Below are positions 5,893 through 52,453 of a stretch of 52,581 nt of DNA, piece after piece (within the stretch, counting starts at the first letter, position 1; each line of letters opens with the position of its first letter). The notes under the pieces were generated by a model. The model was given only the letters and a program-made list of their open reading frames with translations, searched no databases and was not told the origin of the DNA. The DNA is taken from assembly GCA_024408655.1 (NCBI GenBank), contig JAKSUV010000006.1, positions 1-52,581 of the forward strand, given 5' to 3'. This DNA comes from Bacilli bacterium (GTDB lineage Bacteria > Bacillota_I > Bacilli_A > RFN20 > CAG-826). A program made the translations under genes and the position numbers.

Positions 5893-5929
5893 AGAGTCCT
5901 TATTATTATACTATGTATAAGAATGTTTA

Positions 5930-5938
5930 TGCTATAAT
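5930..5938 (+). promoter_or_regulatory. Extended -10 promoter of tRNA-Ser(CGA)
   Basis: TGC-TATAAT forms an extended -10 box 10 bases before the tRNA. No clear -35 is seen. The divergent -10 of the GGDEF/EAL-like gene lies at 5905-5910 on the other strand. Confidence 0.6.
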
Positions 5939-5948
5939 CTATTGCGCT

Positions 5949-6039
5949 GGAGACGTACCCAAGCGGCTGAAGGGGTTAGTTTCGAAAACTAATAGGAGGT
6001 GCAAGCCTCGCCAGAGTTCAAATCTCTGCGTCTCCGCCA
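5949..6039 (+). tRNA. tRNA-Ser(CGA)
   Basis: The 91-base class II tRNA has the acceptor stem GGAGACG / CGTCTCC, encoded CCA, and an anticodon stem TTAGT/ACTAA with loop TTCGAAA, giving anticodon CGA for UCG codons. No terminator follows: the next gene starts 14 bases after the CCA, so the tRNA and mRNA are probably cotranscribed. Confidence 0.95.
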
Positions 6040-6053
6040 AGAGGATACTATTT

Positions 6054-7125: not shown

Positions 7126-7542
7126 TTAACGCCGCTTTTTCCGGAGTTTTTGTTCGTTAATAATAATCTTTTTTAGTTCGATTAAATCTTTGTCGGTAAG
7201 TTCAATACTCCGGTCCATCAGACCGCCCGCGACTACGTATTTACTAAAGACAAAATCATTCACACTTTTATATTTTGTTTCCACTAATTTCATTGGTTTT
7301 TTACTCACCGCACGTTTATTCGTGTGCGCTTGCACAAACTCGGTTAATTGACCTTGGATGGCTCTTAAATCATAGCTTGGATCCATGTTAATTAACGGAT
7401 CAAACGCCGATAAATCACGCGCAATAATATCCGCGTAAACACCAATATCATTCGCTAAAAGATCACAAGTTAAATATTTTTGTTTATTAGCTTTAATGGC
7501 TTTTAGATAACGCTTCGCGTCTTCAACTTTAATTTCGCTCAT
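7126..7542 (-). CDS. Small Rex-like winged-helix protein
   Basis: The protein has 138 residues. The N-terminal 55 residues resemble the DNA-binding domain of the redox repressor Rex: RYLKAIKANKQKYLTCDLLA, then IIARDLSAFDPL, then a SYDLRAI strand, matching helix-turn-helix followed by iRkDLs.fG and Yd...L. The NAD-binding Rossmann domain of Rex is missing; the rest is short, lysine-rich and helical. It may be a small regulator, but its target is unknown. The start at 7542 is fixed by TATAAT exactly 6 bases upstream; the longer ORF to 7638 would read through tRNA-Gln. Confidence 0.6.
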   Translation of the reverse strand: MSEIKVEDAKRYLKAIKANKQKYLTCDLLANDIGVYADIIARDLSAFDPLINMDPSYDLRAIQGQLTEFVQAHTNKRAVSKKPMKLVETKYKSVNDFVFSKYVVAGGLMDRSIELTDKDLIELKKIIINEQKLRKKRR

Positions 7543-7548
7543 ACTGCT

Positions 7549-7554
7549 ATTATA
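7549..7554 (-). promoter_or_regulatory. Leaderless -10 box of the winged-helix gene
   Basis: TATAAT-AGCAGT-ATG: with the usual 6-7 bases from -10 to the transcription start, transcription would begin at the A of the start codon. The box lies between the 3' end of tRNA-Gln (7563) and the gene. Confidence 0.65.
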
Positions 7555-7562
7555 CACTAAAT

Positions 7563-7637
7563 TGGTTGGGGTGACTGGGTTCGAACCAGTGCATAAAGGA
7601 TTCAGAGTCCCACGCCTTACCACTTGGCTACACCCCA
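7563..7637 (-). tRNA. tRNA-Gln(CTG)
   Basis: The 75-base tRNA has the acceptor TGGGGTG / CACCCCA, encoded CCA, anticodon loop CTCTGAA (anticodon CTG) and T-loop TTCGAAC. Its -10 TATAAT is at 7648-7653. No terminator separates it from the winged-helix gene downstream. Confidence 0.95.
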
Positions 7638-7682: not shown

Positions 7683-7688
7683 TATTAT
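7683..7688 (+). promoter_or_regulatory. Leaderless -10 box of the first MATE gene
   Basis: TATTAT-AAATGT-ATG, a 5/6 match to TATAAT at the same 6-base distance seen at other unit-opening genes in this window. Confidence 0.5.
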
Positions 7689-7694
7689 AAATGT

Positions 7695-9098
7695 ATGATT
7701 AAAGTTTTTAAAGATGGTGATTTTAAAAAGCGAATCGTAAAATTTATGATTCCGTTTTTAATTCAAGAACTCATTTTGGTTTTCACTTCCCTTATTGGCA
7801 TTTTAATGATTGAAACGGAACCAGATGTGACCGAAGAGATGATTAGTGGTATGACGAACGCCTTCCAGATCTTCTTTATCTTTAATATGTCAATTGTGGC
7901 ACTAACTTTCATTGGGAACCTTTTTATTTCACAACATTATGGTCGTGGTCACCTCGATAAAATCGAGGAAGATATGTATGTTCTATTAAAGTTTGCTTTA
8001 ATTGTCGCAATCATTTTCACCACTATCTCCGCTGCCATTCCTGAACAAATCATGTGGATTTTCGCCCGCGCTTCGACCGAGGGTGGTCCCGAAATTGTTA
8101 AAAGTGGCGCTGAATATTTAAGATTCTTCTCCATCTCTTATATCCCCACCGCCATTACGATGATTTATTATTGCGTTATGAAGAACGTGAAAATGGAAAA
8201 ATTCGTCGTCATCAATTCTGCTTATTGCTTAGTCCTTGATATCTTATTAAACGCGATTCTAGTTTGGGGCACTCCTCATCTTGGTGTGACAGGCGTCGCG
8301 CTAGCGCTAGTGATTGCGCGTATCGTTGAATGCATTTCCGCTATTTTAATTGAAAATATTCGCGGTTATATTCATTTCCACTTTAAAGGTTTCATTAAAC
8401 TTAACCTCCCGTTAATTAAAGAATTCTCTCGTTATATCGTTTTAATCTTCTTCGCTAAGTTTATTTGGGCTACTTTCTACGCCGCGATTAGCGTAGTGGT
8501 TGGTCGGACTGGCGATGTCGAATTTATTTTCTCGCACTCCCTCATGGTCCAAATGAAGAACATTATTATTACGATTTCCACTAGTGCGGCCGCGGCCGTT
8601 GGTATTATCATCGGTCGTGAATTAGGTGCTAACCGTTTAACTAAGGCGAAAGAACATGGACAAGACGCGCTTCGCTTCGCCATCTTTATTGGTATTCTCC
8701 AAATGGTGGCCTTTATCGTTACATTCGGTATCGCTTATTTCACTAACTTAGATAAATTACAAGGAAATGAAAACACTCAACAATTAATTTATCTAGCTAT
8801 TCTATACGCCATCTATCTCACTCAATTAATCCCGCAAGCCATCAATTCAGTGCTTGGCAATGGGCTATTTAGTGCTGGTGGCGATATCAAGATTGTTTCA
8901 CTACTTGATAGCTTTACTGGTGTGGTTTTACTCGTTCCTGCCATTCTTTTAGTCGAATTAGCCAACGTGAACCCAATTTTAATCTTCACCATTGTGATTA
9001 TTGAAGAGTCAGTGAAGGCGCCAATTTATATCCACCACTATAAGAAAGGCCTCTGGATTAAGAACATTGCTGGTAAAGGTGGCTTCGTCTTTAACTAA
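7695..9098 (+). CDS. MATE family efflux transporter
   Basis: This 467-residue protein of about 12 membrane segments has the two-lobed MATE layout: an N-terminal KRIVKFMIPFLIQELI helix, repeated glycine and proline-rich helices, GVTGVALALVIARIVE closing the first lobe, and AAAAVGIIIGRELGAN plus LFSAGGDIK in the second. The family exports cationic drugs or metabolites using H+ or Na+; the substrate is not predictable. The downstream TrmH gene starts inside its last codons, so the two are coupled. There is no Shine-Dalgarno site, and the start is set by the -10 at 7683. Confidence 0.9.
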   Translation: MIKVFKDGDFKKRIVKFMIPFLIQELILVFTSLIGILMIETEPDVTEEMISGMTNAFQIFFIFNMSIVALTFIGNLFISQHYGRGHLDKIEEDMYVLLKFALIVAIIFTTISAAIPEQIMWIFARASTEGGPEIVKSGAEYLRFFSISYIPTAITMIYYCVMKNVKMEKFVVINSAYCLVLDILLNAILVWGTPHLGVTGVALALVIARIVECISAILIENIRGYIHFHFKGFIKLNLPLIKEFSRYIVLIFFAKFIWATFYAAISVVVGRTGDVEFIFSHSLMVQMKNIIITISTSAAAAVGIIIGRELGANRLTKAKEHGQDALRFAIFIGILQMVAFIVTFGIAYFTNLDKLQGNENTQQLIYLAILYAIYLTQLIPQAINSVLGNGLFSAGGDIKIVSLLDSFTGVVLLVPAILLVELANVNPILIFTIVIIEESVKAPIYIHHYKKGLWIKNIAGKGGFVFN

Positions 9099-12956: not shown

Positions 12957-13481
12957 TTATTTGGTTTTCCCTTTTAAAACGATAAAAGCCACAATGGTAA
13001 AAATTAAACCTAGCCCAAAAATAATACAAGCAGCAATCAAATGGTGTAAATATTTTTTCTTCGTCTTATCTTTATGGTAAGCGAAAAAACTTAATAATCC
13101 ATAAACAAGAATAAGCACAAGCATTCCCACCGAAACATAAGGAAGGCTCGCAAATAAAATTTCGGCAGCTTTCGCGAGTCCTTTCCCAAAATCGTTAATG
13201 AGACCATTTAATTTATTCACAAAATTACGATAGCCTTCGTTTGCCCAAATAATGCCGGCGGTACACGCGGTTGGTACGAGCACCACTAATAGCCAAAATA
13301 CTAATAACGGAACAATGATTAAAGCGCTATTAAAACAGACCAAGAAATAAAGAAACAAAATCACGAGCGCAATAATCGATAAGATAAAAAAGACTTTATG
13401 CGTTTTTTCTAATTTTGTTTTCGGGGCTTTCGCGCGTTTATCCGCCGCCCGTTGTTCTTCACTTTTAAACTCAATTGCCAT
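12957..13481 (-). CDS. Small multi-pass membrane protein
   Basis: A 174-residue protein with a charged N-terminal tail, then two adjacent hydrophobic segments (about residues 33-85) and two more near the C-terminus (about 115-170). I recognise no family. The start at 13481 is preferred because TATAAT stands 7 bases upstream; the longer form to 13529 would include that promoter. It is the first gene of a two-gene unit with DJ-1. Confidence 0.6.
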   Translation of the reverse strand: MAIEFKSEEQRAADKRAKAPKTKLEKTHKVFFILSIIALVILFLYFLVCFNSALIIVPLLVFWLLVVLVPTACTAGIIWANEGYRNFVNKLNGLINDFGKGLAKAAEILFASLPYVSVGMLVLILVYGLLSFFAYHKDKTKKKYLHHLIAACIIFGLGLIFTIVAFIVLKGKTK

Positions 13482-13488
13482 GTTAAAC

Positions 13489-13494
13489 ATTATA
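13489..13494 (-). promoter_or_regulatory. Near-leaderless -10 box of the membrane protein gene
   Basis: TATAAT-GTTTAAC-ATG, with 7 bases between box and start codon. A second upstream in-frame ATG overlaps the box and cannot be the start of this transcript. Confidence 0.6.
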
Positions 13495-13541: not shown

Positions 13542-13547
13542 TATAAT
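13542..13547 (+). promoter_or_regulatory. Leaderless -10 box of rarA
   Basis: TATAAT-ATCACC-ATG, with a consensus -10 exactly 6 bases before the start and no Shine-Dalgarno site. Confidence 0.7.
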
Positions 13548-13553
13548 ATCACC

Positions 13554-14789
13554 ATGGAAATTAATGAGCCATTTGCGAACTTCTATCGTCCAAAAAAACT
13601 TGAGGATGTGGTGGGTCAATCACATCTATTAAATAAGGACGCGGTTTTTTATCAAACCATCAACAGCAAAAAGATTCCGAATATGATCTTTTATGGTCCA
13701 CCCGGCATTGGCAAAACCACGGTTGCGGAGATTATCGCGCATAATACTGACATGAAGCTTTATAAGCTTAATGGCACCACCGCAAAACTTGATGATGTAA
13801 AAGCCATCACCGATGAACTTAACTCCCTTTTAACGAATAATAAGATTCTCTTATACTTAGACGAAATTCAATATTTTAATAAGAAACAACAACAAACCTT
13901 ATTAGACTTTATTGAGAATGGTTCGATTACTTTAATCGCTTCCACTACCGAGAACCCCATGTTTTATATTTACCCCGCCCTTTTATCACGTTGTATGGTG
14001 TTTGAATTTAAGGCCCTAAAAAAAGATGACATCAAGAAACGATTAACGGACATTAGTAAAGAATTAAAAATCAAAGTTAATGATGAAGCATTAGACTTCT
14101 TAAGTATCGCGAGTAATGGTGATATGCGAAAGGCCATTAACTATCTTGAATTCTTATACCAAAGTAAAGAAGCCATCACTTTAAAACGTTGCGAAGAAAT
14201 TGTGAACAAGGCCAGTATTAATTACGATAAAGCCGGTGATGTTCATTACGATACCTTAAGTGCGTTTCATAAATCTATTCGTGGAAGCGATGTTAACGCG
14301 GCTTTATTTTATTTAGCGAAGCTTCTTGATAACGGTGATTTAATTGCCGCTTGTCGAAGACTCCTATGTGTCGCAAATGAAGATATCGGTTTAGCAAATC
14401 CACCCGTTATCTCTTTAGTGAAAGACGCGGTTGATAGCGCTCTAATGTTAGGTTTACCCGAAGGACGCTTACCATTAAGTAATATCACAATTCTTTTAGC
14501 GAGTTCGCCGAAGAGTAACAGTGCGTTAAGTATTGACGCTGCGATCGCCGATGTCCGGGCGGGTAAAGGCGTTGGTTATCCACGGGCGATGCAAAATAAA
14601 CATTACGATGGAAAAGATGCGAAGGTAAAGGGACAAAACTATCAATACCCCCATGACTATAAAGATCACTACGTGGATCAACAATATTTGCCTGACGATC
14701 TTAAAGACGTACAGTACTATAAGCCCGGCGATAATAAAATTGAACAAAGCTACGCGGAATATTTAAAGAAGATTAAGCGTAATCATTAA
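13554..14789 (+). CDS. rarA: Replication-associated recombination protein RarA (MgsA)
   Basis: The 411-residue clamp-loader-like AAA+ ATPase acts at stalled replication forks. It has Walker A GPPGIGKTT, Walker B LYLDEIQYF, sensor-1 ASTTENP and the arginine finger region LLSRC. The C-terminal tetramerisation part contains the family signature RLLCVANEDIGLANP and RAGKGVGYPRAMQNKHYDG. The length is normal. The 3' end overlaps the convergent kinase gene by 17 bases. Confidence 0.95.
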   Translation: MEINEPFANFYRPKKLEDVVGQSHLLNKDAVFYQTINSKKIPNMIFYGPPGIGKTTVAEIIAHNTDMKLYKLNGTTAKLDDVKAITDELNSLLTNNKILLYLDEIQYFNKKQQQTLLDFIENGSITLIASTTENPMFYIYPALLSRCMVFEFKALKKDDIKKRLTDISKELKIKVNDEALDFLSIASNGDMRKAINYLEFLYQSKEAITLKRCEEIVNKASINYDKAGDVHYDTLSAFHKSIRGSDVNAALFYLAKLLDNGDLIAACRRLLCVANEDIGLANPPVISLVKDAVDSALMLGLPEGRLPLSNITILLASSPKSNSALSIDAAIADVRAGKGVGYPRAMQNKHYDGKDAKVKGQNYQYPHDYKDHYVDQQYLPDDLKDVQYYKPGDNKIEQSYAEYLKKIKRNH

Positions 14790-15243
14790 TTTCAATCACT
14801 TCGTGATACGCCTGACGCACTTCATCGGAAATATTTTCAAACTTCTCGTAAAGCTTTTTTAAATCCGCATCGGGTACCCAATGTTGACGGGGCCGTTGTT
14901 TATTAAAATAGGCTAATTCAGTTTTTTCTTTGTTCATAAAGACAAGGATGTATTTATCAAACATCGGGAAGTTCTTGATGTAATCAAGCCGAATTTGGTT
15001 CGTGTCGTTTAACGCGTCCACAATTAAAGTGATGTCGGGTGCTTTGGCAAGTTTCTTCATCCGACGGTAAAAAATCCGCCAGACTTTCTTTTGCTTCGTA
15101 AAATCTTGGTAAGAGTGAGTTACTTCAAACCGCACTTCATCGCTACTTAAAATAAACGTATTCTTATGCATATCCGCATATTTTTTCGCCCAAGTGGATT
15201 TTCCTGCCCCCGGTAAAGCTGACATCACAATCAACGTTTTCAT
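14773..15243 (-). CDS. P-loop kinase of the AAA_33/polynucleotide kinase-like group
   Basis: The 156-residue protein has Walker A SALPGAGKSTWAKKYA, a following ILSSDEVRFEV strand (Asp-Glu near the acceptor site), LIVDALNDTNQ as the second acidic motif, and a late RQHWVPDADLKKLYEKFE lid helix. This matches small nucleotide or nucleic-acid kinases related to T4 Pnk and zeta-toxin folds. The substrate is unknown. It is divergent from the methyltransferase gene across only 23 bases and convergent with rarA. Confidence 0.75.
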   Translation of the reverse strand: MKTLIVMSALPGAGKSTWAKKYADMHKNTFILSSDEVRFEVTHSYQDFTKQKKVWRIFYRRMKKLAKAPDITLIVDALNDTNQIRLDYIKNFPMFDKYILVFMNKEKTELAYFNKQRPRQHWVPDADLKKLYEKFENISDEVRQAYHEVIEINDYA

Positions 15244-15250
15244 GTAAATT

Positions 15251-15260
15251 AGTATACAAT
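15251..15260. promoter_or_regulatory. Overlapping divergent -10 boxes, both fused to start codons
   Basis: Plus strand: TACAAT at 15255-15260, then 6 bases and ATG. Minus strand: TATACT at 15256-15251, then 7 bases and ATG. The two boxes share two bases, and any -35 would lie inside the opposite coding sequence. Confidence 0.6.
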
Positions 15261-15266
15261 ATTTGT

Positions 15267-16235
15267 ATGCGATTTTTCTTAAATAAAACCGAGCAAGAAA
15301 AAATTAATCGGCTTTTAGAAACTTCTGACTATAACGATGAAGTCGCCACCTTCTTAAATCACAATGTGATTAACGAAGATTTTATTGATGAATTCACCAA
15401 AGTTTGTGAGATTAAAAAATTAGATATTAACGATTACTTATCGGATCACTACTACCAAAGTGTTCATAGTAATACAAAAAGTAAAGGCTACGAATTAAAG
15501 ATTGAACATTATCGTCCTTACCAATGCTTTTTATATGATGATATCGAAGTGGACGAAGATGACTATTTCTTAATCAAGAACCACGTTGGTTATTTCATAA
15601 GTGACTATCCTTATCTTACTATTCAAAAGGATCACGTTATCTGGATGAGCCTTATCCCACACGAGATTAACACGATGAAAAAGGCCGCGCACTCAGTGTC
15701 TAAACAACTCTATGTCTTAGGGCTAGGTCTAGGCTACTACCCGAGTTTATTGAGCGCGCAAGTGGATAAAATCACGATTATTGAAAAAGATCCGATGGTC
15801 ATTACCTTATTTAAACAAAATATCCTCCCTCAACTTGATCACAAAGAAAAATACGAAATTGTTGAAGCGGACGCTTATGAGTACGCGCACGCGCCTAATA
15901 TTAATGGTGATATATTTTGTGACCTTTGGCACAACGAACACGATGGACTTGAAGCCTATCTAAAACTGAAAAAAATCTTGAAAAATCATCCCAATGTCCA
16001 CTACTGGATTGAAGAGAGCTTAATCGCCGCTATTCGTCATCTTCTCATTAACCTTATCGAAGAGGAACTTTATCACGCGGGCGAATTTAATTACCAAAGT
16101 AAAAAGAGTCTAGAAGATCACATCATTAATCGACTCCACCACCATTTCTTAAACTACGAAGTTAAAACCTATAATGACATTAAAAAAATCCTCCAAACAA
16201 AGTATTTGAAGGATTTAGCTGGCGAACTTTATTAG
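15267..16235 (+). CDS. SAM-dependent methyltransferase-like protein
   Basis: The 322-residue protein has a Rossmann methyltransferase core in its second half: YVLGLGLGYYPSLLS (motif I), ITIIEKDPMVI (acidic end of strand 2) and the EADAYEY and GDIFCDLWH strands, resembling the spermidine-synthase-like group. The N-terminal 130 residues are acidic and not recognised. The target is unknown. The stop overlaps the galK stop by 3 bases on the other strand. Confidence 0.7.
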   Translation: MRFFLNKTEQEKINRLLETSDYNDEVATFLNHNVINEDFIDEFTKVCEIKKLDINDYLSDHYYQSVHSNTKSKGYELKIEHYRPYQCFLYDDIEVDEDDYFLIKNHVGYFISDYPYLTIQKDHVIWMSLIPHEINTMKKAAHSVSKQLYVLGLGLGYYPSLLSAQVDKITIIEKDPMVITLFKQNILPQLDHKEKYEIVEADAYEYAHAPNINGDIFCDLWHNEHDGLEAYLKLKKILKNHPNVHYWIEESLIAAIRHLLINLIEEELYHAGEFNYQSKKSLEDHIINRLHHHFLNYEVKTYNDIKKILQTKYLKDLAGELY

Positions 16236-38272: not shown

Positions 38273-38842
38273 TTAATTTTTATTATTCCAAGGAATCACT
38301 TGATATTTCTTATTAACTAAGAAAGCGTTTTTCGCCGCTAAGAGTAAAGGCGTGTCTCTTAATGAATCGGTATAGAAGTTATCAATCGTCGCGTTCGGAT
38401 AAAATTTCTTAAACCGACGAAGTTTCTCCCCTTCCACATTAATCGGGCCAATAAATTGACGGGCCTTAACATCAAATTCGCTTAAGATGTAATGCTTAAT
38501 ATTTAAGGCAATGAGCATTGGTTCAAGTAAGAAACGCGGAGTGGCGCTAATAATGACATCATCCGGTTTTTGTTGTTTTTTATACCAAGGTAAGATTTTC
38601 TTTTTCCGTTTCTTCCAGAATTTTAAAACGGTTTGATCAATGTCTTTAATTGGTTTTAAGACTAAATAAAGACGATGCCGCCACTCGGCTTCGCTAATCT
38701 TTTTGTGATGATATAAAATGTTGGCTTTGGCGAAGTAAAAAAGATGCAATAAATTACTCGGATAATGCCACAAAGCGTAACGAAAAAAATCCTCTTCGGT
38801 GTCATCCCTACAAATCGTTTTATCGAAGTCATAAACATTCAT
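38273..38842 (-). CDS. HAD superfamily phosphatase (HAD-IB type)
   Basis: The 189-residue protein has nucleophile motif DFDKT, motif II ISATP and a motif III aspartate pair in NFYTDSLRDTPLL, following the phosphoserine phosphatase-like subclass. The substrate is unknown. The TATAAT at 38852-38857 stands 9 bases before the ATG, giving a leader of only 2-3 bases. Confidence 0.85.
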   Translation of the reverse strand: MNVYDFDKTICRDDTEEDFFRYALWHYPSNLLHLFYFAKANILYHHKKISEAEWRHRLYLVLKPIKDIDQTVLKFWKKRKKKILPWYKKQQKPDDVIISATPRFLLEPMLIALNIKHYILSEFDVKARQFIGPINVEGEKLRRFKKFYPNATIDNFYTDSLRDTPLLLAAKNAFLVNKKYQVIPWNNKN

Positions 38843-38900
38843 AGCGTTATTATTATAACTTGAATATAAGCCCTTTTCCCATTAAAATTATAGGTGAATT

Positions 38901-40297: not shown

Positions 40298-42727
40298 TTA
40301 AATACAGAAAGCAGGAGCGAAGGCGTAATCAGTGTATACGAGTTCGTATTCAAATTCTCCGCTACCGTTTACAAATTCTGAAAATCTATGAGCATCTTCA
40401 TAAGTGCGCGGGGAACGAGTCCAATATGCAGTACAAAGTGCACCAGAAGCAGTTGTTTTTACTCTTTTTGATTGTGGGTTAGTCATATAGTATTCGTACG
40501 TTACACCTTCTTCCCTAGTATCTTCAACGGAATCTTGACTCATTTCATGGCAAGAAAGCGGGAATAATCTAGTGGGCAAGTAGTTATGGGGGTCCCAATC
40601 ATCATCCAAGGAAACCTGTTTACTGACCTCTTTCATAACAGACTGTAAGTCAATAGGCAATTGTCCTATGATGGATATTAACAAATTATTTAATATTGAA
40701 CCGGGGAAATTAGTATTCCAATCTTCATCCCAAAAAGTTTTAAGCGGATTGCCGTCAGTGTTGGTCATCACATCCGCAAATTCAACCGTCAATGCGGCTT
40801 TTCCTTTTCCATTAGAAAGATCATCGTGATTAATGCCAATAATTCGTAAAGTATGTGCAAGATTATTAAATTGAATCTCTCTAGTTTCTCCTACTTTAAA
40901 CCAATCATTAATGTATTCGTCCGGTAAAGAAGTTAGTTCGGCTAATTGAGCCCACGAAGCATTAGCAAATACGCTATACTCTGGATCAAAAACGTGAACG
41001 AAAACGGAAGAAATATTATTTCCTTGAAAATTAGTAAACATAAATTCTTCAGTTGCTTGGCTATACTTGATTGTATCAGGATATGCAGCGTTAAATTGTT
41101 CCAGCGTATACCAAGTGGTTGCGCCATCATTAGTTCTAGTCCTAATTGCGATATTTTCATCAGTAACCCATTGGAATTTTTCACCAGTTATTCGGATGTG
41201 AAGATCTTCATCTGATAATTGAACGCCTCGCATATAATCAGATTGAAAATTGAAAGTAATGCCGTATCCATTAAGTTCATAAAAATACCCATTAACGATT
41301 CTTGCGGTAGCGTCAATCTTTAAATCACCTTTTACGTATTTACCAAAAACCGTAACCGTTCCTCTTAGATGATATGTATCTTCAGCAGCAAATTCAATTT
41401 TATATGCACTGACACCTAATCGATGATAGGTTTCGCCTATTTTAACGCTAATATTAATTTGTTCGCATTGATCAGGCGCATAATAGTAGTAGGTATCATT
41501 TGTTGATGACTGATTGATTGCTTCAAGAATAAAAGTGAAATCTTCTCCGCGTCTAGGAGGAAAATTCACCATAGAAATTAAATGATCCTCACCTGGCGTA
41601 ATAGAACTAGTATCAACCTGGTACTCTGGTTGATAGTTATTAACTGTAATTTGTGCATCACCATCTTGCTGAAGTTCTTTGTGTAATATTCTAATTACAC
41701 CTTGGACCGACGAAGTTCTTTCATAGGTAAAACTTAAATTATTGCCGGCTTTATTTTTCACCGTAAAAGATTGTTCATCCATTGGCATCAAATATTTTGA
41801 AGTGTCAGATATTATGACGTAAACATCAGTTGTAACATTCAAGCGGTTTTCTTTTACTTTTACAATTTTCAAAGCGGAACCTTCAGCTAGTTGAATGTCA
41901 TAATCATAAATTGGAAACACCATATCCTTAGTCGAATCATCAATGACATAGTCGTTAGGAATAACAACCCTATCCTCAGGTTTTTTGGCGTCAAATGACC
42001 ACCCACTAAATATGTAATTAGCACGCTTAGCTATAACAGTTGGAGCGACTTCGCCCCAAACAGTGCCACATTCGATGGTTTGCGTTCCTTCACCTTTGAT
42101 AATTTCTCCTTCTTCTGGATTAAAAGTAATAGTCTTAGTTTTTTTATTAACGGTGATAGTAATAGAAAAATCTTCATTGGCTTTTGGAGTAATAACTAAT
42201 TCATTATTGATGCATTCGCAATCACCACATTCCGGATCAGAAACAACGGGTGAAGCAGCATAATATTGAGTAATGGTATACGGGACATGAATTTCTTTGT
42301 AATCATCGTACTTAAAATTGACCGCTTTTTTATCGGGAGAAATAAATTGTTCGCTGGCTTTATCGACAATAATTTTAATAGTCGACACGAATGACATTCC
42401 TACTACTTCGGCATTGATAGTGATATTTTTATTTTCTTGGGGAGTAATAGTAATAGTGTGCTCTTCAATATCAAAATCACATATTGTCGAACCAATATTA
42501 GATTCAACATTAACAACAGCATAGGATTCATCGATTTCGTAGACTGCGACAATCGGCGTAAAATGATCTTCTCTAAAAGTAAAAGTTGGCTGTTTGGATC
42601 TAAAATGCTGGGATTCTAGAATTGTTACAGTGTATTCTTTAGGACTCGGTGGATCAACTTCGCCATTATTACAACTCGCTAAGAGCGATATAGTCATTAA
42701 AGGTATAACAAATAATAGTTTTTTCAT
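40298..42727 (-). CDS. Large lipoprotein with a C-terminal DUF6273-like module
   Basis: The 809-residue protein has a signal peptide with lipobox LLASC. Repeated beta modules follow: an N-terminal pair of about 90 residues with FTPI and ITPQENKNITI-type strands, then an InlB-like segment (ANYIFSGWSF). The last 200 residues (about 610-809) form a module resembling DUF6273: LRIIGINHDDLSNGKGKAAL, NFPGSILNNLL, RLFPLSCHEM, AYWTRSP and the end APAFCI. The fold is expected to be C-type-lectin/formylglycine-enzyme-like and to bind a surface or host ligand; this is inference. Confidence 0.75.
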   Translation of the reverse strand: MKKLLFVIPLMTISLLASCNNGEVDPPSPKEYTVTILESQHFRSKQPTFTFREDHFTPIVAVYEIDESYAVVNVESNIGSTICDFDIEEHTITITPQENKNITINAEVVGMSFVSTIKIIVDKASEQFISPDKKAVNFKYDDYKEIHVPYTITQYYAASPVVSDPECGDCECINNELVITPKANEDFSITITVNKKTKTITFNPEEGEIIKGEGTQTIECGTVWGEVAPTVIAKRANYIFSGWSFDAKKPEDRVVIPNDYVIDDSTKDMVFPIYDYDIQLAEGSALKIVKVKENRLNVTTDVYVIISDTSKYLMPMDEQSFTVKNKAGNNLSFTYERTSSVQGVIRILHKELQQDGDAQITVNNYQPEYQVDTSSITPGEDHLISMVNFPPRRGEDFTFILEAINQSSTNDTYYYYAPDQCEQINISVKIGETYHRLGVSAYKIEFAAEDTYHLRGTVTVFGKYVKGDLKIDATARIVNGYFYELNGYGITFNFQSDYMRGVQLSDEDLHIRITGEKFQWVTDENIAIRTRTNDGATTWYTLEQFNAAYPDTIKYSQATEEFMFTNFQGNNISSVFVHVFDPEYSVFANASWAQLAELTSLPDEYINDWFKVGETREIQFNNLAHTLRIIGINHDDLSNGKGKAALTVEFADVMTNTDGNPLKTFWDEDWNTNFPGSILNNLLISIIGQLPIDLQSVMKEVSKQVSLDDDWDPHNYLPTRLFPLSCHEMSQDSVEDTREEGVTYEYYMTNPQSKRVKTTASGALCTAYWTRSPRTYEDAHRFSEFVNGSGEFEYELVYTDYAFAPAFCI

Positions 42728-42733
42728 AATTTA

Positions 42734-42739
42734 ATTATA
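42734..42739 (-). promoter_or_regulatory. Leaderless -10 box of the 809-residue lipoprotein
   Basis: TATAAT-TAAATT-ATG, with the box exactly 6 bases before the start codon. Confidence 0.65.
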
Positions 42740-44761: not shown

Positions 44762-47212
44762 TTATACCGGGGTATGATTATATAAATCCCACACTAATGT
44801 GCCATACGCTTCTTTAATTGGAACAATGCAAGCACGAGGATTTTCAAAACTAGTAGAATTATTGTTATGAAAACAAAGATACAAATTACCATCAGGATCG
44901 TCAAAAATCATTGCGTGCCCTCCGTCAGAGGCGCCTTCACAAATGTCTTTTGCATAAAGAAGCCGTTCTTGTTGCTCCCAACAATATGGATTTGTAAGTT
45001 CTTTATCACCATATTTATTACAAACTATGCCAACACAATATTTATCGTAAGGATCAAAGGATGACGCAATCATCACTAAGCTACCATCTTTAAGTTTACG
45101 GATAAATTGGCCTTCAAAAACGCCTTCGTATTGCTTTCGCCAAGGCACATAGGTGTCCCCATCAACCAACTTCACGCTCTCCATTTCACGGATTTGTGAT
45201 AAAGGCTCAATTCCTGGGTCAGTCTTAAATGGGACAATAGTCAATCCGTTACAAGTCCTATCATCGCGGCCATAACAATGTATCAAATACGGTTGTTCTT
45301 TGCCATCTTCCATCTTCTTAACATATAAGGTGCCATCGATGCCGCCGCACTGACTACCAACAATTTTGTGACTCACAATGTGTCCAGGACCGGGGCCGTT
45401 GTCAGGATTTGTAGAAATCATCTCAAAACCCTCAGTTAAAGATTTGCTTTTAAAGATGACTGTGCCCTGATTACTAGATTTGTCTACATAAGTAGTAAAC
45501 AAATAATAATTATCCCCATATTTATGTAACTCGGGAGCCCAACGATATGTATCTATAAACGGATATTGTGACTCATCAACAATATCTTCATTTAATAATT
45601 TCCAGCCACTTTTGAAGGTATCTTTGGCGCCGTACACTGACCATTTATCGCCATCAAAGCTTCCGCATGTACCATACATATAATAATTAGTCCCATCACG
45701 ATAAATAAACGGATCGCGAATTTTGCGACCATCAGGTAAAAAATCAACAATGTAATCTTCTTTTTTACAAGCACCTCTAACCTCAAGGCCAGTTGGAACG
45801 TCAATTCCGTCTTCATATAAGAAATCAGTCAAAAGACGATCAACCGCACAAATTCTTGCAAAATTTGTTCGATAAGCAAATATTATTTTATTATTAGCCA
45901 CTTTGATAATGTAATCGTCATTATCGCGTAACTCCTTGGCTAACTCTTGCGATTCAGAGCGATGATCAGTTAGAATAATTTCTCTATCGGTAGAAGGTGC
46001 ATGCTCGTTAACAATAGTTAGATTTTTTTCACCATGATATCTTCTAGCATCATTAATTTGGCGAGCACCATGATAGCAAACTCTAGCATCTTCCCCTTCA
46101 TAAACAATTTGATAATCGTTAGTGATGTGCAAAATATTCACGGTCGCTGTGGATGTAGCGGTAAATGAAACATCAGTATCTGGCATTTCAAAAGTGAGCA
46201 TTCCAGTTTCAGAATCATAAGTATATTCGCTTAAACCACTAATATTACTTAGTTCTGGCATGCCGTATATATGAGTAGTATCTTTATCGGGGATAAATTT
46301 TAATTTTACTTTTGATCCGACGATATACCCTTCTTGTTTTGGATCTTCGTAGAAATGACAATTAGATAATGTGCCGGTAACAGTGTGTTTAACTAAAGAA
46401 TCAGCGGTAGCACTAACCTCAACATCAGTAGTTACTTCGCTAATCGTAATGGTTTTAGTTTCATCATCATAAGTGGCATTTTTACCTGTAACCTCAACTT
46501 TTTGATCATTCAAGAAATAACCATAATCAACATTAACCGAGAATTTTACATTTTTATCACCTTTTTTAATTTCTTTGGCTAGGATTCTTGAATTACCGTC
46601 AATATTACAATTTGTGCCAGTAAAACTAAATTTTAAAAGAGTATAAGCCTTTGCGGTAATATTTACTGGTCCCACTACTTCAGAAATAATGATTTTTTGA
46701 GAAGCGGGATTGTAATCGACATTTTCGCCCTCTATCTTTAAATCGTCTTTTCCTAAAGCATAACCGGAATCAACGCTAATTGAAAATTCAACATTTTTAT
46801 CGCCTTTTTTAAGTGGCTTATCAGTAATATCGCGAATTCCGCCAATGTTACAATTTTCGCCATGGAAAGTGAAGCTTGGTTTAGTGGTCGCATCCGCGGT
46901 GACAATAACATCACCGACTACTTCACTAATGGTAATCTTGTGAGTTACTTCATCATAAGTAGTGTTTTTACCAGTAATCTCTACATCACTTTGAATTAAG
47001 ACAAAGTCGTATTCAGGGTTAATAGTAAAAGTAAGATTTTTATCACCTTCATATATCTTAGTTTCGTATTTGTCTTCGTATTCAATATTGCAGTTTGTGC
47101 CTTCAAAGGTAAATTGATAGGCGGTTGGTTGATCTGTATGCGGGGTAGGGCCGCAACCATACATAAATAAAAAAGACGATACTAAAGGAACAATAACTAA
47201 ATTTTTTTTCAT
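44762..47212 (-). CDS. GH43-like glycoside hydrolase lipoprotein with tandem repeats
   Basis: The 816-residue protein has lipobox MYGC. Residues about 30-270 hold three tandem repeats of about 80 residues (pattern F.G.NCNI, then KGDKN, then Y....TITISEV) plus a fourth diverged unit. From about residue 490 a five-bladed propeller matches GH43: RDPFIYRDGTNYYMYGT with the catalytic base Asp, WAPELHKYGDNYYLFTTY, the pKa-modulating Asp in GGIDGTLYVKK, the acid Glu in FEGQFIRKLKDGS and GHAMIFDDPDGNLYLCFH. It would cut arabinan or xylan-type glycans outside the cell; the substrate is not certain. Confidence 0.85.
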   Translation of the reverse strand: MKKNLVIVPLVSSFLFMYGCGPTPHTDQPTAYQFTFEGTNCNIEYEDKYETKIYEGDKNLTFTINPEYDFVLIQSDVEITGKNTTYDEVTHKITISEVVGDVIVTADATTKPSFTFHGENCNIGGIRDITDKPLKKGDKNVEFSISVDSGYALGKDDLKIEGENVDYNPASQKIIISEVVGPVNITAKAYTLLKFSFTGTNCNIDGNSRILAKEIKKGDKNVKFSVNVDYGYFLNDQKVEVTGKNATYDDETKTITISEVTTDVEVSATADSLVKHTVTGTLSNCHFYEDPKQEGYIVGSKVKLKFIPDKDTTHIYGMPELSNISGLSEYTYDSETGMLTFEMPDTDVSFTATSTATVNILHITNDYQIVYEGEDARVCYHGARQINDARRYHGEKNLTIVNEHAPSTDREIILTDHRSESQELAKELRDNDDYIIKVANNKIIFAYRTNFARICAVDRLLTDFLYEDGIDVPTGLEVRGACKKEDYIVDFLPDGRKIRDPFIYRDGTNYYMYGTCGSFDGDKWSVYGAKDTFKSGWKLLNEDIVDESQYPFIDTYRWAPELHKYGDNYYLFTTYVDKSSNQGTVIFKSKSLTEGFEMISTNPDNGPGPGHIVSHKIVGSQCGGIDGTLYVKKMEDGKEQPYLIHCYGRDDRTCNGLTIVPFKTDPGIEPLSQIREMESVKLVDGDTYVPWRKQYEGVFEGQFIRKLKDGSLVMIASSFDPYDKYCVGIVCNKYGDKELTNPYCWEQQERLLYAKDICEGASDGGHAMIFDDPDGNLYLCFHNNNSTSFENPRACIVPIKEAYGTLVWDLYNHTPV

Positions 47213-47218
47213 ATGATT

Positions 47219-47224
47219 ATTATA
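47219..47224 (-). promoter_or_regulatory. Leaderless -10 box of the GH43 lipoprotein
   Basis: TATAAT-AATCAT-ATG, with 6-base spacing and no Shine-Dalgarno site. Confidence 0.65.
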
Positions 47225-47242
47225 CATTATTTATTCATAAAT

Positions 47243-47354: not shown

Positions 47355-49676
47355 TTAAATGCAGAAAGCGGGGGCAACGGCACGGCTTCTATCAACTATA
47401 ACATTACTCCATGTTCCATCACCTTTTATGAAAAGAGCACAATCATGGTATGACGGCGAATGGGATCTAGTCCAATATGCACAAGGAGCGGTTGCACCAA
47501 TAAGGTATTTTTTCCTGTCAGGATTCTTTTTATAATATTCATATGGTTCGCCTTCGTGCTTCCAATCACTATCCTCCAGGTTATATTCTTTAGCTGAAAT
47601 AGCAAAGATTTCTACGTCCTCGTAAACATCATCATAATATTTACCATATTCATCTTCACTATATACAATAGAAGGTTTTGAAACTTTTTTGCAATAAAAC
47701 CGCAATTCATATGGTAGGCGCGTTGAAAAGCTGTCTTTAAGGAAATTGTCCAGCGGGCCGTTAACATAGCAACCATGTTCTTTGATATCGTTTGAATATT
47801 GAACAAGAAATGGACTAATTGAATAATCCTCAGTAAGTAACTCGACAGTTTCAATCGTCAATCCAGCTTTTCCGTTTCCGTCAGAAAGATTATCGTGAGA
47901 AAAACCGATAATCCGGAAAGTATATCTTTCATCTTCAACATGTCTTAATTCGCCAAGAGTAAAAAATTTTCTAATTTGTTCGGTCGGTAACGATGCCAAT
48001 TCGGAAATTGTATCCCAACTTGCGTTTTGAAAAATGCTATAGCTAGGAAGAAAGACATAGAAGGCAATCGTTTGAATACAATCCGCATTCGGACTAATAA
48101 CAATTTTGTGCTCAGTTTGATTATAAGTAACGAAATTATTATATGGTGAAGGCAAAACATCGCAAGTATACCAGTCCGTGCCATTCATTCTTATTAAGAT
48201 GTTACTAGCAGCAACGCTATCTACCCCGTCCCCAGATAAGATAATTTCTGTTGTCTCACTGTAGTCTATATATTTACCAGCAATACTACAAGTGACGCCA
48301 TATCCGTTAGCTAGGAGATGGTAACCCCCGCTAGTCACCGCATCCGCGGTAATATGAACATCGCCTTTAACAAATCTTCCTAATATTGTTACTTTGGCTT
48401 TAGTAAAATCTTGACCATCGCTTATATCTTCAATTGTGTATGCTTTCGTACTAATTATTGGTGATTCATTAATCGTTATACCAATATTTTGAGGAACGGT
48501 ATAGATTTCGTTTTGTGAATTATTAGCGGTAAGAGTAAAAACAAAATCGTCCCCTCGTTTCGGATTATTTTCTTTTTCAAGAGTCAAATTACTTAAAGTC
48601 TCTTCGCATTCATATTCAGGTCTATAATCAGATACCCAAACTTCAATAATATCAGACGTAACACGAGATAACGAAGCGTTTATATGAATTTGACTGGCGC
48701 CTCTTTTATAATCATACGTATACTCAATTTGATCAGGACCGCATAGTTCAATGTCTTTCTTTTCCGGTATTCCATAATGTTCAATGTCCGCAAATCTAAA
48801 ATATAAATCAATTTCATTGTTATTAGGATATGTTTGTTTTTCAAGTTCAATCGAACGATTATTATGTAGCTCAATGTTATGATAATAAATCGCATTAACG
48901 CTATCTGGTGTATTTTCATTAATAACATAATTATCATCGATAATTTCGTCATATATCCAGCGATTAAAAGACCAACCCGCAAATGTGCGTTCACCTAGTT
49001 TAGCGACTTGTGTGGATGCATCAACGCATTCCCCCCAAGTTTTCCCGTAAGGCATTAAAATTTCATCTTGAGCATCTTCGCTTAATGCGCCTCCATTAGG
49101 CAAAAATTTAACAACTTTATATCTTTCGGTAACAGTAGGAACAACGTTGATATTATTATCGCATTTAGGAGTAACAATAATTTTATTATTTTTCACTTTG
49201 ACATCAGCCGAATCCGGTTTTTCTACACTAGCAGTAATAGCGCAATATTTATCAATGGTGAACGGAAAAGAAATTTGATTACGACTTCCTTTAGCGAAAG
49301 GAATTGATTTTATATCCATTTGCATATGCGGCGGAACATTGATAATCGTAACATATGAAACTTGATCTAAACTTGTAACTGAGACAGTAACGCTAAAATT
49401 AGCGTTCTTTTGTGGAGTAATGATTAATTCTTCCTTTAGATAATCAAAAGTGCACTCATTCCCTTCAACATTACAAATTGTTTTAGTCACAACAAATCCA
49501 CTATCAGTGGTATAGGGCACTGTTATTGGAGTAAAATCATCTTCTGCAAAAGAAAGAGCGGAAACAGTAGGCTTAAAATGCTCGGTTGCATTAATGGTAA
49601 TAGTATATTTCTTTGGCCCACAACTTGCTAAAAAAGAAGCAAACATTAGTGGCATAACAAATGCAAATTTATTCAC
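47355..49676 (-). CDS. Large lipoprotein with a C-terminal DUF6273-like module
   Basis: The 773-residue protein starts at GTG 49676, chosen because TATAAT lies exactly 6 bases upstream and the following sequence makes a good signal peptide with lipobox FLASC. The modules parallel the 809-residue protein: FTPITVPYTTDSGF, IITPQKNANFSVTV, an InlB-like segment (ERTFAGWSF), and a C-terminal module with FRIIGFSHDNLSDGNGKAGL, YWTRSHSP and the end APAFCI. It is probably a surface-anchored ligand-binding protein. Confidence 0.75.
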   Translation of the reverse strand: MNKFAFVMPLMFASFLASCGPKKYTITINATEHFKPTVSALSFAEDDFTPITVPYTTDSGFVVTKTICNVEGNECTFDYLKEELIITPQKNANFSVTVSVTSLDQVSYVTIINVPPHMQMDIKSIPFAKGSRNQISFPFTIDKYCAITASVEKPDSADVKVKNNKIIVTPKCDNNINVVPTVTERYKVVKFLPNGGALSEDAQDEILMPYGKTWGECVDASTQVAKLGERTFAGWSFNRWIYDEIIDDNYVINENTPDSVNAIYYHNIELHNNRSIELEKQTYPNNNEIDLYFRFADIEHYGIPEKKDIELCGPDQIEYTYDYKRGASQIHINASLSRVTSDIIEVWVSDYRPEYECEETLSNLTLEKENNPKRGDDFVFTLTANNSQNEIYTVPQNIGITINESPIISTKAYTIEDISDGQDFTKAKVTILGRFVKGDVHITADAVTSGGYHLLANGYGVTCSIAGKYIDYSETTEIILSGDGVDSVAASNILIRMNGTDWYTCDVLPSPYNNFVTYNQTEHKIVISPNADCIQTIAFYVFLPSYSIFQNASWDTISELASLPTEQIRKFFTLGELRHVEDERYTFRIIGFSHDNLSDGNGKAGLTIETVELLTEDYSISPFLVQYSNDIKEHGCYVNGPLDNFLKDSFSTRLPYELRFYCKKVSKPSIVYSEDEYGKYYDDVYEDVEIFAISAKEYNLEDSDWKHEGEPYEYYKKNPDRKKYLIGATAPCAYWTRSHSPSYHDCALFIKGDGTWSNVIVDRSRAVAPAFCI

Positions 49677-49682
49677 CGCATT

Positions 49683-49688
49683 ATTATA
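49683..49688 (-). promoter_or_regulatory. Leaderless -10 box with a GTG start
   Basis: TATAAT-AATGCG-GTG, the same 6-base arrangement with a GTG start codon. Confidence 0.6.
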
Positions 49689-49730
49689 ACATAAATGTAA
49701 CAAAAAAAGCGACTAATTCCTCTTTTTTAT

Positions 49731-49770
49731 GTGTGGTGCCAACTAACGGGAAAAGCCTTGCTTTTATAAA
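49731..49770 (-). repeat. Intergenic lipoprotein-island element, copy c
   Basis: On the minus strand: TTTATAAAAGCAAGG, then CCCGTTAGTTGGCACCACACAT, close to copy d. It merges with the 3' end of the fic remnant. Confidence 0.55.
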
Positions 49771-49806
49771 GACAATAATCCCAATAATGTTGAATAAAAT
49801 GTCCGT

Positions 49807-50180
49807 AAATTTCTTTTCTTGCTCAAAATCATATTGAAGCGCTCTTTCTAAATCTCGATAATCGCCATAAGTCACTGAATCCCCATCTAGAACCCACTCT
49901 TTCTTTTTAAAATTGTAACTTCTGATTTGCCCGGGTCGTTTTAATATTCCATCAAACAAAGTTCGGTGAATAGTTAGAAGTTGCCCAACACTAAAAGTAA
50001 AGGAATCTTCAAAGATAATTTTCGCAATTCGAACAGAAATCTTATCCGCTTCTTCAGTTCGATCGCTTCGATTAGATTTAATTTTATAGTATGAATTAAC
50101 AATAATATCTAATTCATTAAGAGAAATCTCGCCTTCAATATATCGATTAGCGGCATTACTAACGAAGTTAGTTTTTTCAT
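49807..50180 (-). pseudogene. Fic family remnant, frameshifted after the start and lacking the core
   Basis: Translation from AACTTC onward gives NAANRYIEGEISLNELD, then RTEEADKISVRIAKIIFED, GQLLTIHRTLFDGILKRPG and KKEWVLDGDSVTYGD, closely following the N-terminal half of Fic AMP-transferases. Similarity stops after EQEKKF, before the HxFx(D/E)GN catalytic motif. The start ATG (50180, TATAAT 6 bases upstream) is followed by six As; seven would put it in frame. It is therefore both frameshifted and truncated. Confidence 0.75.
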
Positions 50181-50186
50181 AACCAC

Positions 50187-50192
50187 ATTATA
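50187..50192 (-). promoter_or_regulatory. Leaderless -10 box of the fic remnant
   Basis: TATAAT-GTGGTT-ATG; an intact promoter remains in front of the broken gene. Confidence 0.6.
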
Positions 50193-50239: not shown

Positions 50240-52441
50240 TTAAATGCAAAACGCAACCGTATAACCAAATTTATTATAAACATAATCTCGCGTTGCTTCA
50301 GTGCCAGAGTCTTTTATATAGTAAGCTTGGTGATAATCGTCGCCTTGTAAAATTGAACGGCTCCAATAACCAACTGGAAAAGGCGCAATACCGCTACCGA
50401 CCACTTTGCAGGTTTTCTTAATTCGTTTATCCGCAGGACAATCTGCGTAATAGGGGTAAACAGATCCTTCAGCATCCCAATAAAAGGCAGAGGTTAAATT
50501 TAATTCAGCTAGAGAAAGCGGGAATATTTTTGTATCACAACTTTGCATTTCTCTAGTATCATCCCAATTCCACACTAAAACGGGTTTACTTACTTGCTTG
50601 ATGCAAGATTGTAAATCCAATGGGAACATCGGAAAGAAAACATTTTGAAGATAATTATCATAAATGCCTCCACGGTAATCTTCTCCGACTCTTTCATCAA
50701 ACCTCTCGAAATAAGCATCACCGTTATTCTTTGTAATCACTTGCGCAAATTCGATAGTCATACTAGCCGTACCAGTTTTAGAAGTTAATTCATCGTGATT
50801 AAAGCCGATAATCCTAGCATCGTATGTAATATCAGCAACTTTAACTTTCTTGGTGTCACCAACACGGAAGAATGTCTCATGCCAACCATTTTCAGCAAAC
50901 TTATTGATTGTTGTCCAACTTAGTTTACTAAAGAATTCAAAACCCGGAACAGAAACATATATCCCGACATAATTATAAGGATAAGTTCCGGTTGATAAAG
51001 TAACCGTATTAGCTCCGCTATCGGTTATCGTAAAGTTTTTATATTGATCAGGACAATCAGTATCACTTAGACGATAAAGATTTCTATCTAAATCTTCGAT
51101 AATAACCCGTTCACGAGTAATAGTACTAGTACTCACTTCGTCACCACTAATAGAAAACGTTTTACCGATTTCTTGAATTGAAGCGCCGAACATATATCCA
51201 TCTTGGTCATAATCACCTTCAACTTGCGCGCCACAAACTAAGATATCCCATTCAAAATAATTTGCCTCAGTCGCCACGCCAGCGATTGAGAAATCATCGG
51301 TAATGTATCTAGCGTAAATTGTGACCTTAGCATTTTGACGATACGGGTCGGTGGAACAATCAATTTGATAAGCTTCCTTGGGTAATAATGTTCCATCGCT
51401 AAGCTTAATAGATAGCGAATGAGGAATAGTGTGTGTGCTAGTATTTGGCTCCCCTTTAATTTTTAAAGTAAAAACAAGGTTATGTCCACGTTCTACCAAG
51501 GCTGGTTTTGGCAGATCAGGACTTTCCATAAATAAACCAAAATCAATTGATGTAATTTCAAAATAATATAGATAATCAGTTGCTTTTATTATATAAGTTT
51601 TTGTTCTTACCGGTTGAACATCACTAATAGTAATTTTGGCGCTAAAATCAGTTAAACGTTGGTATGTAAAACTAGGTTCCGAGCCATCGCTAGCGAGGAT
51701 TTTAAAATATTGATCATCAGGAGGGATACGGTATTTATTTTGTCGTTCCTCTTTAACCGTCAAGTCTATCTCAACACTATCTGGCAAATAACGGCATTCC
51801 TTAATTTCTAATGTACTAGCGTCACTGTTATATAAACTTACGGTACGTTGACTTGATATAAGTTTTATTTGCGAATCAGTACTGTCATCGTTAGGAGTAA
51901 TTACTAAATTAAACCCCTCACTTCCCTCACTATATATGTATTCGAGCGTGTGCGAAGGGTTAACGACAGTACTATCGATAGTAAATCCATTAGTAATCGT
52001 ATAAGGAACGGTAATTGGAGAAAAATCACCTTTACGATAACTAACTTGTTCCTGGATTTGGATATTATTATCGCCAACTAATGTGACAGTACAAATTCTT
52101 TCTTTTTCGGTTGTGCTAGCGGTAATGACAATATCATCCGTTAAAGTAATATTAAGTTTTGCGTCCTTCGAATTGTAATTATAGTTAGTAAAAGATTTAC
52201 CGGCGGCATTAACAATCTGAACTTCGTTATCAGTTGGGTTAGCGTGCCCTCTTACGGGTAGAAAAGTAAAATTAAGTTCTGTTCCTTCTTGATATTTCCC
52301 TTCGGTAAACTTTTTCCCATCAGCGGTGTTTAAAATACAATCAGTGCCAGAAAATTTAACGGTATGTAAAGGTTTTTCGCCACAGCTTGTTAAAAGCGAT
52401 AACGGCATTAATGACATTAATAATAAACATATTTTTTTCAT
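50240..52441 (-). CDS. Large lipoprotein with a C-terminal DUF6273-like module
   Basis: The 733-residue protein starts at MKKICLLL (52441), with TATAAT 6 bases upstream; the ORF extension to 52531 would cover the promoter and terminator. It has lipobox LLTSC, beta modules including FSPITVPYTITNGFTI, and a C-terminal module with ARIIGFNHDELTSKTG, TKIFPLSLAEL, GYWSRS and the end TVAFCI. It is a paralogue of the lipoproteins at 40298, 42842 and 47355. Confidence 0.75.
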   Translation of the reverse strand: MKKICLLLMSLMPLSLLTSCGEKPLHTVKFSGTDCILNTADGKKFTEGKYQEGTELNFTFLPVRGHANPTDNEVQIVNAAGKSFTNYNYNSKDAKLNITLTDDIVITASTTEKERICTVTLVGDNNIQIQEQVSYRKGDFSPITVPYTITNGFTIDSTVVNPSHTLEYIYSEGSEGFNLVITPNDDSTDSQIKLISSQRTVSLYNSDASTLEIKECRYLPDSVEIDLTVKEERQNKYRIPPDDQYFKILASDGSEPSFTYQRLTDFSAKITISDVQPVRTKTYIIKATDYLYYFEITSIDFGLFMESPDLPKPALVERGHNLVFTLKIKGEPNTSTHTIPHSLSIKLSDGTLLPKEAYQIDCSTDPYRQNAKVTIYARYITDDFSIAGVATEANYFEWDILVCGAQVEGDYDQDGYMFGASIQEIGKTFSISGDEVSTSTITRERVIIEDLDRNLYRLSDTDCPDQYKNFTITDSGANTVTLSTGTYPYNYVGIYVSVPGFEFFSKLSWTTINKFAENGWHETFFRVGDTKKVKVADITYDARIIGFNHDELTSKTGTASMTIEFAQVITKNNGDAYFERFDERVGEDYRGGIYDNYLQNVFFPMFPLDLQSCIKQVSKPVLVWNWDDTREMQSCDTKIFPLSLAELNLTSAFYWDAEGSVYPYYADCPADKRIKKTCKVVGSGIAPFPVGYWSRSILQGDDYHQAYYIKDSGTEATRDYVYNKFGYTVAFCI

Positions 52442-52447
52442 TGCATT

Positions 52448-52453
52448 ATTATA
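52448..52453 (-). promoter_or_regulatory. Leaderless -10 box of the 733-residue lipoprotein
   Basis: TATAAT-AATGCA-ATG, almost identical to the box at 49683, as expected for duplicated genes. Confidence 0.65.

Follow-up and report, generated by a model that had tools for sequence, protein, structure and literature searches.

Eleven start codons in a stretch of DNA from a Bacilli bacterium lie directly behind a hexamer that resembles a bacterial -10 box. At the gene for a RarA-like AAA ATPase (CDS 13554-14789, forward strand), for instance, a perfect TATAAT (13542-13547) is followed by six bases and the ATG, the whole element spanning 13542..13556. This raises the question of whether the hexamers are promoter elements from which messages without a leader are made, and whether the arrangement is general in this organism. 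The window, that is, the whole stretch of 52,581 nucleotides that was analysed (G000:C7:1-52581, 38% GC), belongs to a draft genome of 913,481 bases in 10 contigs, 67% complete; the 16S gene was not found in the contigs of this incomplete assembly. A preliminary description of the window had predicted leaderless mRNAs from these starts.

A -10-like hexamer stands directly before the start codons

All 11 starts carry a -10-like hexamer 6 or 7 bases before the codon, as had been described. Exact TATAAT with a six-base spacer (n=7) precedes 13554(+) and, on the reverse strand, the ATG at 7542 (7540..7554; CDS 7126-7542), that of a DUF6273 protein at 42727 (42725..42739), that of a GH43-domain protein at 47212 (47210..47224), the GTG of a further DUF6273 protein at 49676 (49674..49688), the ATG of a 23-codon frame at 50180 (50178..50192) and that of another DUF6273 protein at 52441 (52439..52453). 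At the same spacing, TATTAT precedes the ATG of a MATE-like transporter at 7695(+) (7683..7697), which is the weakest site, and TACAAT (15255-15260) precedes the ATG of CDS 15267-16235(+) (15255..15269). A seven-base spacer separates the ATG at 13481(-) (CDS 12957-13481; 13479..13494) from TATAAT (13494-13489) and the ATG of a P-loop kinase-like protein at 15243(-) (CDS 14773-15243; 15241..15256) from TATACT (15256-15251). The hexamers named in the preliminary description were right for ten starts but did not include the TATACT form of 15243(-), and its list of sites, all 11 of which exist, omitted a HAD-like protein at 38842(-), where TATAAT (38857-38852; 38840..38857) lies nine bases before the ATG. 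Judged by eye, none of the 11 starts has a Shine-Dalgarno site, in agreement with the same description.

The window contains seven copies of exact TATAATN6ATG, where 1.27 would be expected, and 0 of 100 shuffles reached 7; one of the seven, at 47531(+), sits within an opposite-strand gene. With one mismatch allowed, the raw count was at chance level (31 versus 33.1 expected), so that the significance rests on position at gene starts. Three of the 11 starts (42727, 49676 and 52441) belong to DUF6273 paralogues; the GTG of 49676 aligns by eye with the ATG of 52441, and the upstream sequence common to the two, also judged by eye, makes these sites non-independent.

The positional peak is genome-wide and in frame

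We then analysed an own-genome sample of 20 stretches plus the window (434,405 bases, 331 genes), with gene starts taken from a simple custom caller (coding score, ATG preferred) and not from curated annotation. After 26 genes at stretch ends had been dropped, there remained 305 classed genes, 137 first and 168 internal. The whole genome holds 32 exact TATAATN6ATG sites, 7 of them in the window where 1.8 were expected by length (p 0.003), which shows that the window is enriched relative to its genome. Outside the window, exact TATAAT at spacers 6-9 was found in 17/117 first genes versus 2.2 expected from a background of spacers 15-73 (p 2e-10), and in 5/150 internal genes versus 0.5 expected. 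The genome-wide positional peak that had been proposed as a test is therefore present, and so is the predicted concentration in first genes (21/137 first versus 5/168 internal genes, window included). The peak is not the sharp one at 6 that had been anticipated: the first genes of the own sample gave 0, 7, 7, 2, 5 and 0 boxes at spacers 5 to 10, a spacing of 6-9. A Clostridia control gave 2/555 first genes at spacers 5-9, for a background of 2.37 per position.

The reading frame was used as a test that does not depend on the chosen start codon. Of the ATGs that lie 6-9 bases behind TATAAT near gene starts, 33/37 in the own sample (26/30 when the window is left out) and 37/38 in a sample of the genus were in frame, versus only 5/9 and 5/11, respectively, at control spacers of 12-15. 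At spacers 18-27 the genus and family samples again showed some in-frame excess, which is what promoters with leaders should produce.

Fused boxes and Shine-Dalgarno sites exclude each other

Pooling the first genes of the own, genus, g17 and g24 samples (n=449), we found TATAAT at spacers 5-9 in 61 genes versus 8.1 expected, and of the three hexamers most enriched at these spacers it was the only one not resembling a Shine-Dalgarno site. A Shine-Dalgarno site was detected in 1/61 of the genes with a fused box and in 134/388 of the other first genes (p 2e-9), indicating that the two signals exclude each other and extending beyond the window the absence claimed for its starts. When the own sample was split four ways, counting as fused a box with at most one mismatch and TA...T kept, the 137 first genes comprised 32 with a fused box only, 40 with a Shine-Dalgarno site only, 1 with both and 64 with neither. 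About 10 of the 33 fused first genes are the share expected by chance; corrected for this, the fused class makes up 13-17% of the first genes and about 7-11% of the 305 classed genes of the own genome, and in the genus sample its share of first genes is 17-25%. Shine-Dalgarno sites stand before 41/137 own first genes (30%), and the suggestion that the fused arrangement is the dominant mode has to be rejected.

Promoter identity rests on the -10 box

The hexamers are close to the TATAAT consensus, as for a sigma-70 type promoter, but the other elements of such promoters were not enriched. At 15-19 bases above the box, at least 4/6 matches to the -35 hexamer were present in 17/63 cases versus 12/63 and 17/63 at control offsets, a small sample, and the TGn extension accompanied 9/63 fused versus 7/66 far boxes. 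A base profile of 40 promoters (8 of 48 were dropped as near-duplicates) likewise revealed no strong upstream element. Thus, promoter identity rests on the -10 box; promoters with only this element occur in other bacteria.

By a simple terminator search of the own and genus samples, 12/48 fused genes versus 10/238 other first genes had a hairpin and T run no more than 80 bases away (p 2e-5). Median upstream gaps were 72 and 67 bases for fused and 110 and 115 bases for other genes, and these shorter gaps account at least in part for the excess of terminators. At L008:7359, L016:2416, L014:6640 and L139:11346, the hairpin and T run are followed directly by the -10 box and start codon; in these two samples, a terminator directly before the box makes for very short gene borders.

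The box is kept in orthologues while flanking DNA diverges

Upstream regions were compared with those of three genomes of the same genus (G001, G003 and G004), BLAST hits starting after query residue 12 being dropped. The relatives keep the box while the flanking DNA diverges. TATAAT with a six-base spacer before the RarA-like gene is kept in all three. At 13481, TATAAT stands 6 or 7 bases before the codon in 3/3 relatives while the remaining upstream DNA has changed, and the proteins of two of them are only 42-45% identical. For 38842 the box is kept in 2/2, the upstream sequence being identical in G003 and TACAAT lying nine bases before the codon in G001. The box of 7695 is present in G003 and missing from the distant G004 homologue (35% identical). 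No orthologue of 42727, 47212, 49676 or 52441 was found among the same-genus loci searched. The gene at 35667 provides a contrast: its distant TATAAT and its Shine-Dalgarno site are kept in three relatives.

Further afield in the family and order, RarA orthologues such as those of L024, L026, L111, L118, L119, L124 and L128 have TATAAT 6 or 7 bases before the ATG, and others, for example in L107, L108, L110 and L112, do not. The nearest named relatives of the protein come from rumen assemblies labelled Bacilli (68% identity) and from uncultured Erysipelotrichaceae (60-61%); the organism presumably belongs to one of the orders of uncultured Bacilli with small genomes. In one family member (G031:C2:57171-58398), the RarA match is split into two pieces that overlap, and an internal stop interrupts one of them.

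A 23-bp divergent gap is a candidate two-way promoter

The divergent start codons of 15243(-) and 15267(+) are separated by 23 bp (15244-15266), within which the TATACT of one strand and the TACAAT of the opposite strand share two bases (15255-15256). These overlapping boxes (15251-15260) are kept in G001, G003 and G004. In G003 the gap is as in the window, including TATACT with its seven-base spacer; in G001 and G004 it measures 24 bp and reads TATAAT in both directions through ATTATAAT, with TATAAT seven bases before the codon of the 15243 orthologue. A second 23-bp gap of like kind was found in L136, and by eye these short gaps of the window, G001, G003, G004 and L136 contain no Shine-Dalgarno site. 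Judging from its sequence, the gap in the window is a candidate for holding the promoters of both genes.

The palindromic ATTATAAT between two ATGs is infrequent overall. It was absent from the own, family, g17 and g24 samples and occurred once each in the order and Clostridia samples; the genus sample has four, three of them at short divergent gaps, and two of these three represent one gene pair found in two genomes. Divergent gaps of 0-45 bp made up 11/65 in the own and genus samples versus 6/115 in the Clostridia control (p 0.015), an excess that is weak, as G003 and G000 are almost one species. Pseudo-symmetric -10 boxes are described for bidirectional promoters in E. coli (PMC12825309). 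The gap at 15244-15266 is like the promoters outlined there in having a -10 box in each direction, and differs from them in that here a coding frame starts 6-9 bases from the box both ways. The 23-24 bp pair offers a compact natural test of a minimal two-way promoter with translation starts.

The excess extends over the family

Whole genomes were searched for TATAAT-N(6-9)-ATG, with TATAAT-N(12-15)-ATG as a shifted-spacer control. The 116 genomes of the family gave 13,804 versus 10,832 sites, and 104 of them showed an excess. By genus, the ratio reached 3.46 in g24, 2.71 in g17, 2.08 in g52 and 1.41 in the own genus; it was below 1 in g2, g4, g6, g19 and g50. A class sample of 296 genomes comprised 253 from other orders, 7 from the same order and 36 from the own family. 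An excess at 6-9 was seen in 82 of the 253; f22 had a ratio of 1.24 (19 genomes, mostly 0.7-0.9 Mb), f25 one of 1.12 (28 genomes, one genus at 1.91), f3 of the same order no clear excess (1.01), and the remaining families with at least 10 genomes 0.88-0.95. In this class sample the excess is thus strong in the own family, in most of its genera, and weaker in f22 and f25. We guess that f22 is mycoplasma-like and that f25 represents lactic acid bacteria, which would match a published survey discussed below.

AT-richness does not explain the signal, which is strongest in genera of high GC: exact TATAAT at spacers 5-9 was found in 7/96 first genes of g17 stretches (53% GC; background 0.20 per position) and in 6/67 of g24 stretches (60% GC; background 0.03 per position). 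A family sample with one stretch per genome showed little excess (7/152 versus 3.9) and an order sample none (4/147 versus 3.2); both pooled genomes of differing composition, which weakens gene calls.

Probable leaderless or near-leaderless messages

Taking together the observed positional peak, frame, Shine-Dalgarno exclusion, conservation and family spread, we consider it very probable that the boxes belong to vegetative-sigma promoters whose mRNAs are leaderless or nearly so; promoter function, sigma use, transcript 5' ends and the route to the ribosome are what we infer from these patterns. As transcription normally begins some 6-8 bases past the -10 box, a spacer of 6-9 bases allows for a leader of 0 to about 3 bases. 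With the -10 box of the vegetative sigma factor placed 6-9 bases before the start codon, RNA polymerase would start transcribing at the codon itself or no more than about 3 bases away, and a message that starts at the codon has no room for a Shine-Dalgarno site. Such leaderless mRNAs would probably depend on 70S ribosomes that recognise the 5' AUG. The genome would use this mode beside ordinary Shine-Dalgarno starts, mostly at first genes of transcription units, and the fused promoters would often lie right behind the terminator of the previous gene or in very short divergent gaps.

A refinement, plausible though we do not favour it, accepts the boxes as true -10 elements but gives the transcripts leaders of often 1-5 bases, so that many messages would be near-leaderless and not strictly leaderless. 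The spread of spacings over 6-9, where a fixed 6 might have been seen, speaks for it, spacers of 8 and 9 leaving 1-3 leader bases; functionally it is almost the same as the preferred reading, and no Shine-Dalgarno site fits into such leaders. The gene at 7542 could instead be read from a tRNA promoter and released by cleavage of the tRNA 3' end: it lies 20 bases behind tRNA-Gln on the same strand (7563-7637), its box being 8 bases behind the tRNA, and this arrangement is kept in G001 and G004. We regard this as unlikely, for TATAAT with its six-base spacer is kept in 2/2 of these relatives (protein 70% identical) while the distance to the tRNA changes, and the proposal covers only 1/11 sites. 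Still less probable is that the hexamer acts as an unstructured or A/T-rich aid to ribosome binding on leadered mRNAs from a promoter further upstream. Non-canonical initiation signals are known in other groups, as noted in the StartLink work (PMC9581028), and the boxes show no -35 enrichment, but the signal is specifically TATAAT and is seen also among genera with 53-60% GC, in which AT-rich sequence is rare, and in the 23-24 bp divergent gap TATAAT replaces TATACT and TACAAT in both directions. Chance in an AT-rich genome, picked out because this window was the one read, is hardly credible and is refuted for the whole set by the count outside the window (p 2e-10), the frame test and the orthologues, even though the window exceeds its genome share, one-mismatch counts are at chance and 3/11 sites are paralogues; individual sites, 7695 for one, may nonetheless be due to chance.

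Consequences for gene starts in the window

The preliminary description held that the fused boxes correct gene starts, which proved right for some of them. An upstream ATG at 13490 overlaps the -10 box of 13481 and is unlikely to be the true start, and a longer in-frame start at 47227 would place TATAAT within the GH43-domain gene that starts at 47212. Gene finders seeking only Shine-Dalgarno sites will misplace starts such as these two. The ATG at 50180(-) opens only 23 codons, the long open frame there lying in another frame. This open frame of 164 residues (49690-50181, reverse strand) has no in-frame start codon at its front, a weak similarity to the Fic family (NCBIfam E 0.0018, far under the cut-off) and no Pfam match at 0.001; with the ATG out of frame, the gene looks broken, which is probable, or the assembly is in error. 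Two further features were noted: between 40298 and 52441 on the reverse strand, four DUF6273 proteins and the GH43-domain protein stand in a row, a local expansion, and ARAGORN places a second tRNA-Ser at 5949-6039(+), inside the front of ORF 5913-7124; this tRNA is absent from the Rfam matches at gathering score.

Relation to known leaderless systems and significance

Leaderless genes in Firmicutes are already on record. The survey of Zheng et al. (2011; PMC3160421), which by its description relied on the same upstream signal as used here, reports them in 56/209 Firmicutes genomes (mean 4.2%, range 2.4-16.6%), chiefly in Lactobacillales and Mycoplasma, with a mean of 18.3% for five Mycoplasma genomes and averages of 19.2% for Actinobacteria and 39.4% for Deinococcus-Thermus. 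Leaderless transcription is predicted by StartLink in 21.6% of bacterial species, for up to 40% of transcripts (PMC9581028). M. pneumoniae is reported to have 16% leaderless-like transcripts, translated as well as leadered genes, and Shine-Dalgarno sites in 8.1% of genes (PMC10568206).

As in the genes counted as leaderless by the survey (PMC3160421), the starts described here have a TA-like -10 signal about 10 bases upstream, no Shine-Dalgarno site and an in-frame start. They are like those reported for Mycoplasma (PMC3160421, PMC10568206) in the small genome, the consensus TATAAT near the start and the lack of a Shine-Dalgarno site there, whereas such sites are still common in the present genome (41/137 first genes). 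They also resemble the Lactococcus-Streptococcus and Oenococcus-Leuconostoc groups as given in PMC3160421, in that a minority of genes carry TATAAT some 10 bases ahead of the start and Shine-Dalgarno genes exist alongside them; Lactococcus, in that account, has a very strong TG before the box, unlike the boxes here (TGn in 9/63, not enriched). The geometry is the same as described for Actinobacteria and Deinococcus-Thermus, but the frequency is lower here and the box is exact TATAAT instead of the loose TAnnnT, a form that the survey itself links to GC (PMC3160421). Our literature search on leaderless genes in Bacilli, RF39 and uncultivated genomes found no paper on the present family. Starting protein synthesis in this way is known, though from a minority of genes, and the clade would be a new one for it.

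A large uncultured family would join the few low-GC groups with many leaderless genes, and because relatives without the excess are close by, gain or loss of leaderless initiation can be traced within one family. We tentatively propose that in this whole uncultured family of Bacilli many gene borders may have contracted to a terminator, a -10 box and a start codon. The promoters would lack a -35 element and be fused to the codon, and at some loci one -10 element read both ways would serve a pair of leaderless genes inside 23-24 bp. On this view, leaderless initiation would be a normal, streamlined way of expressing genes in the family, having arisen or expanded independently of that in Mycoplasma and the lactic acid bacteria.
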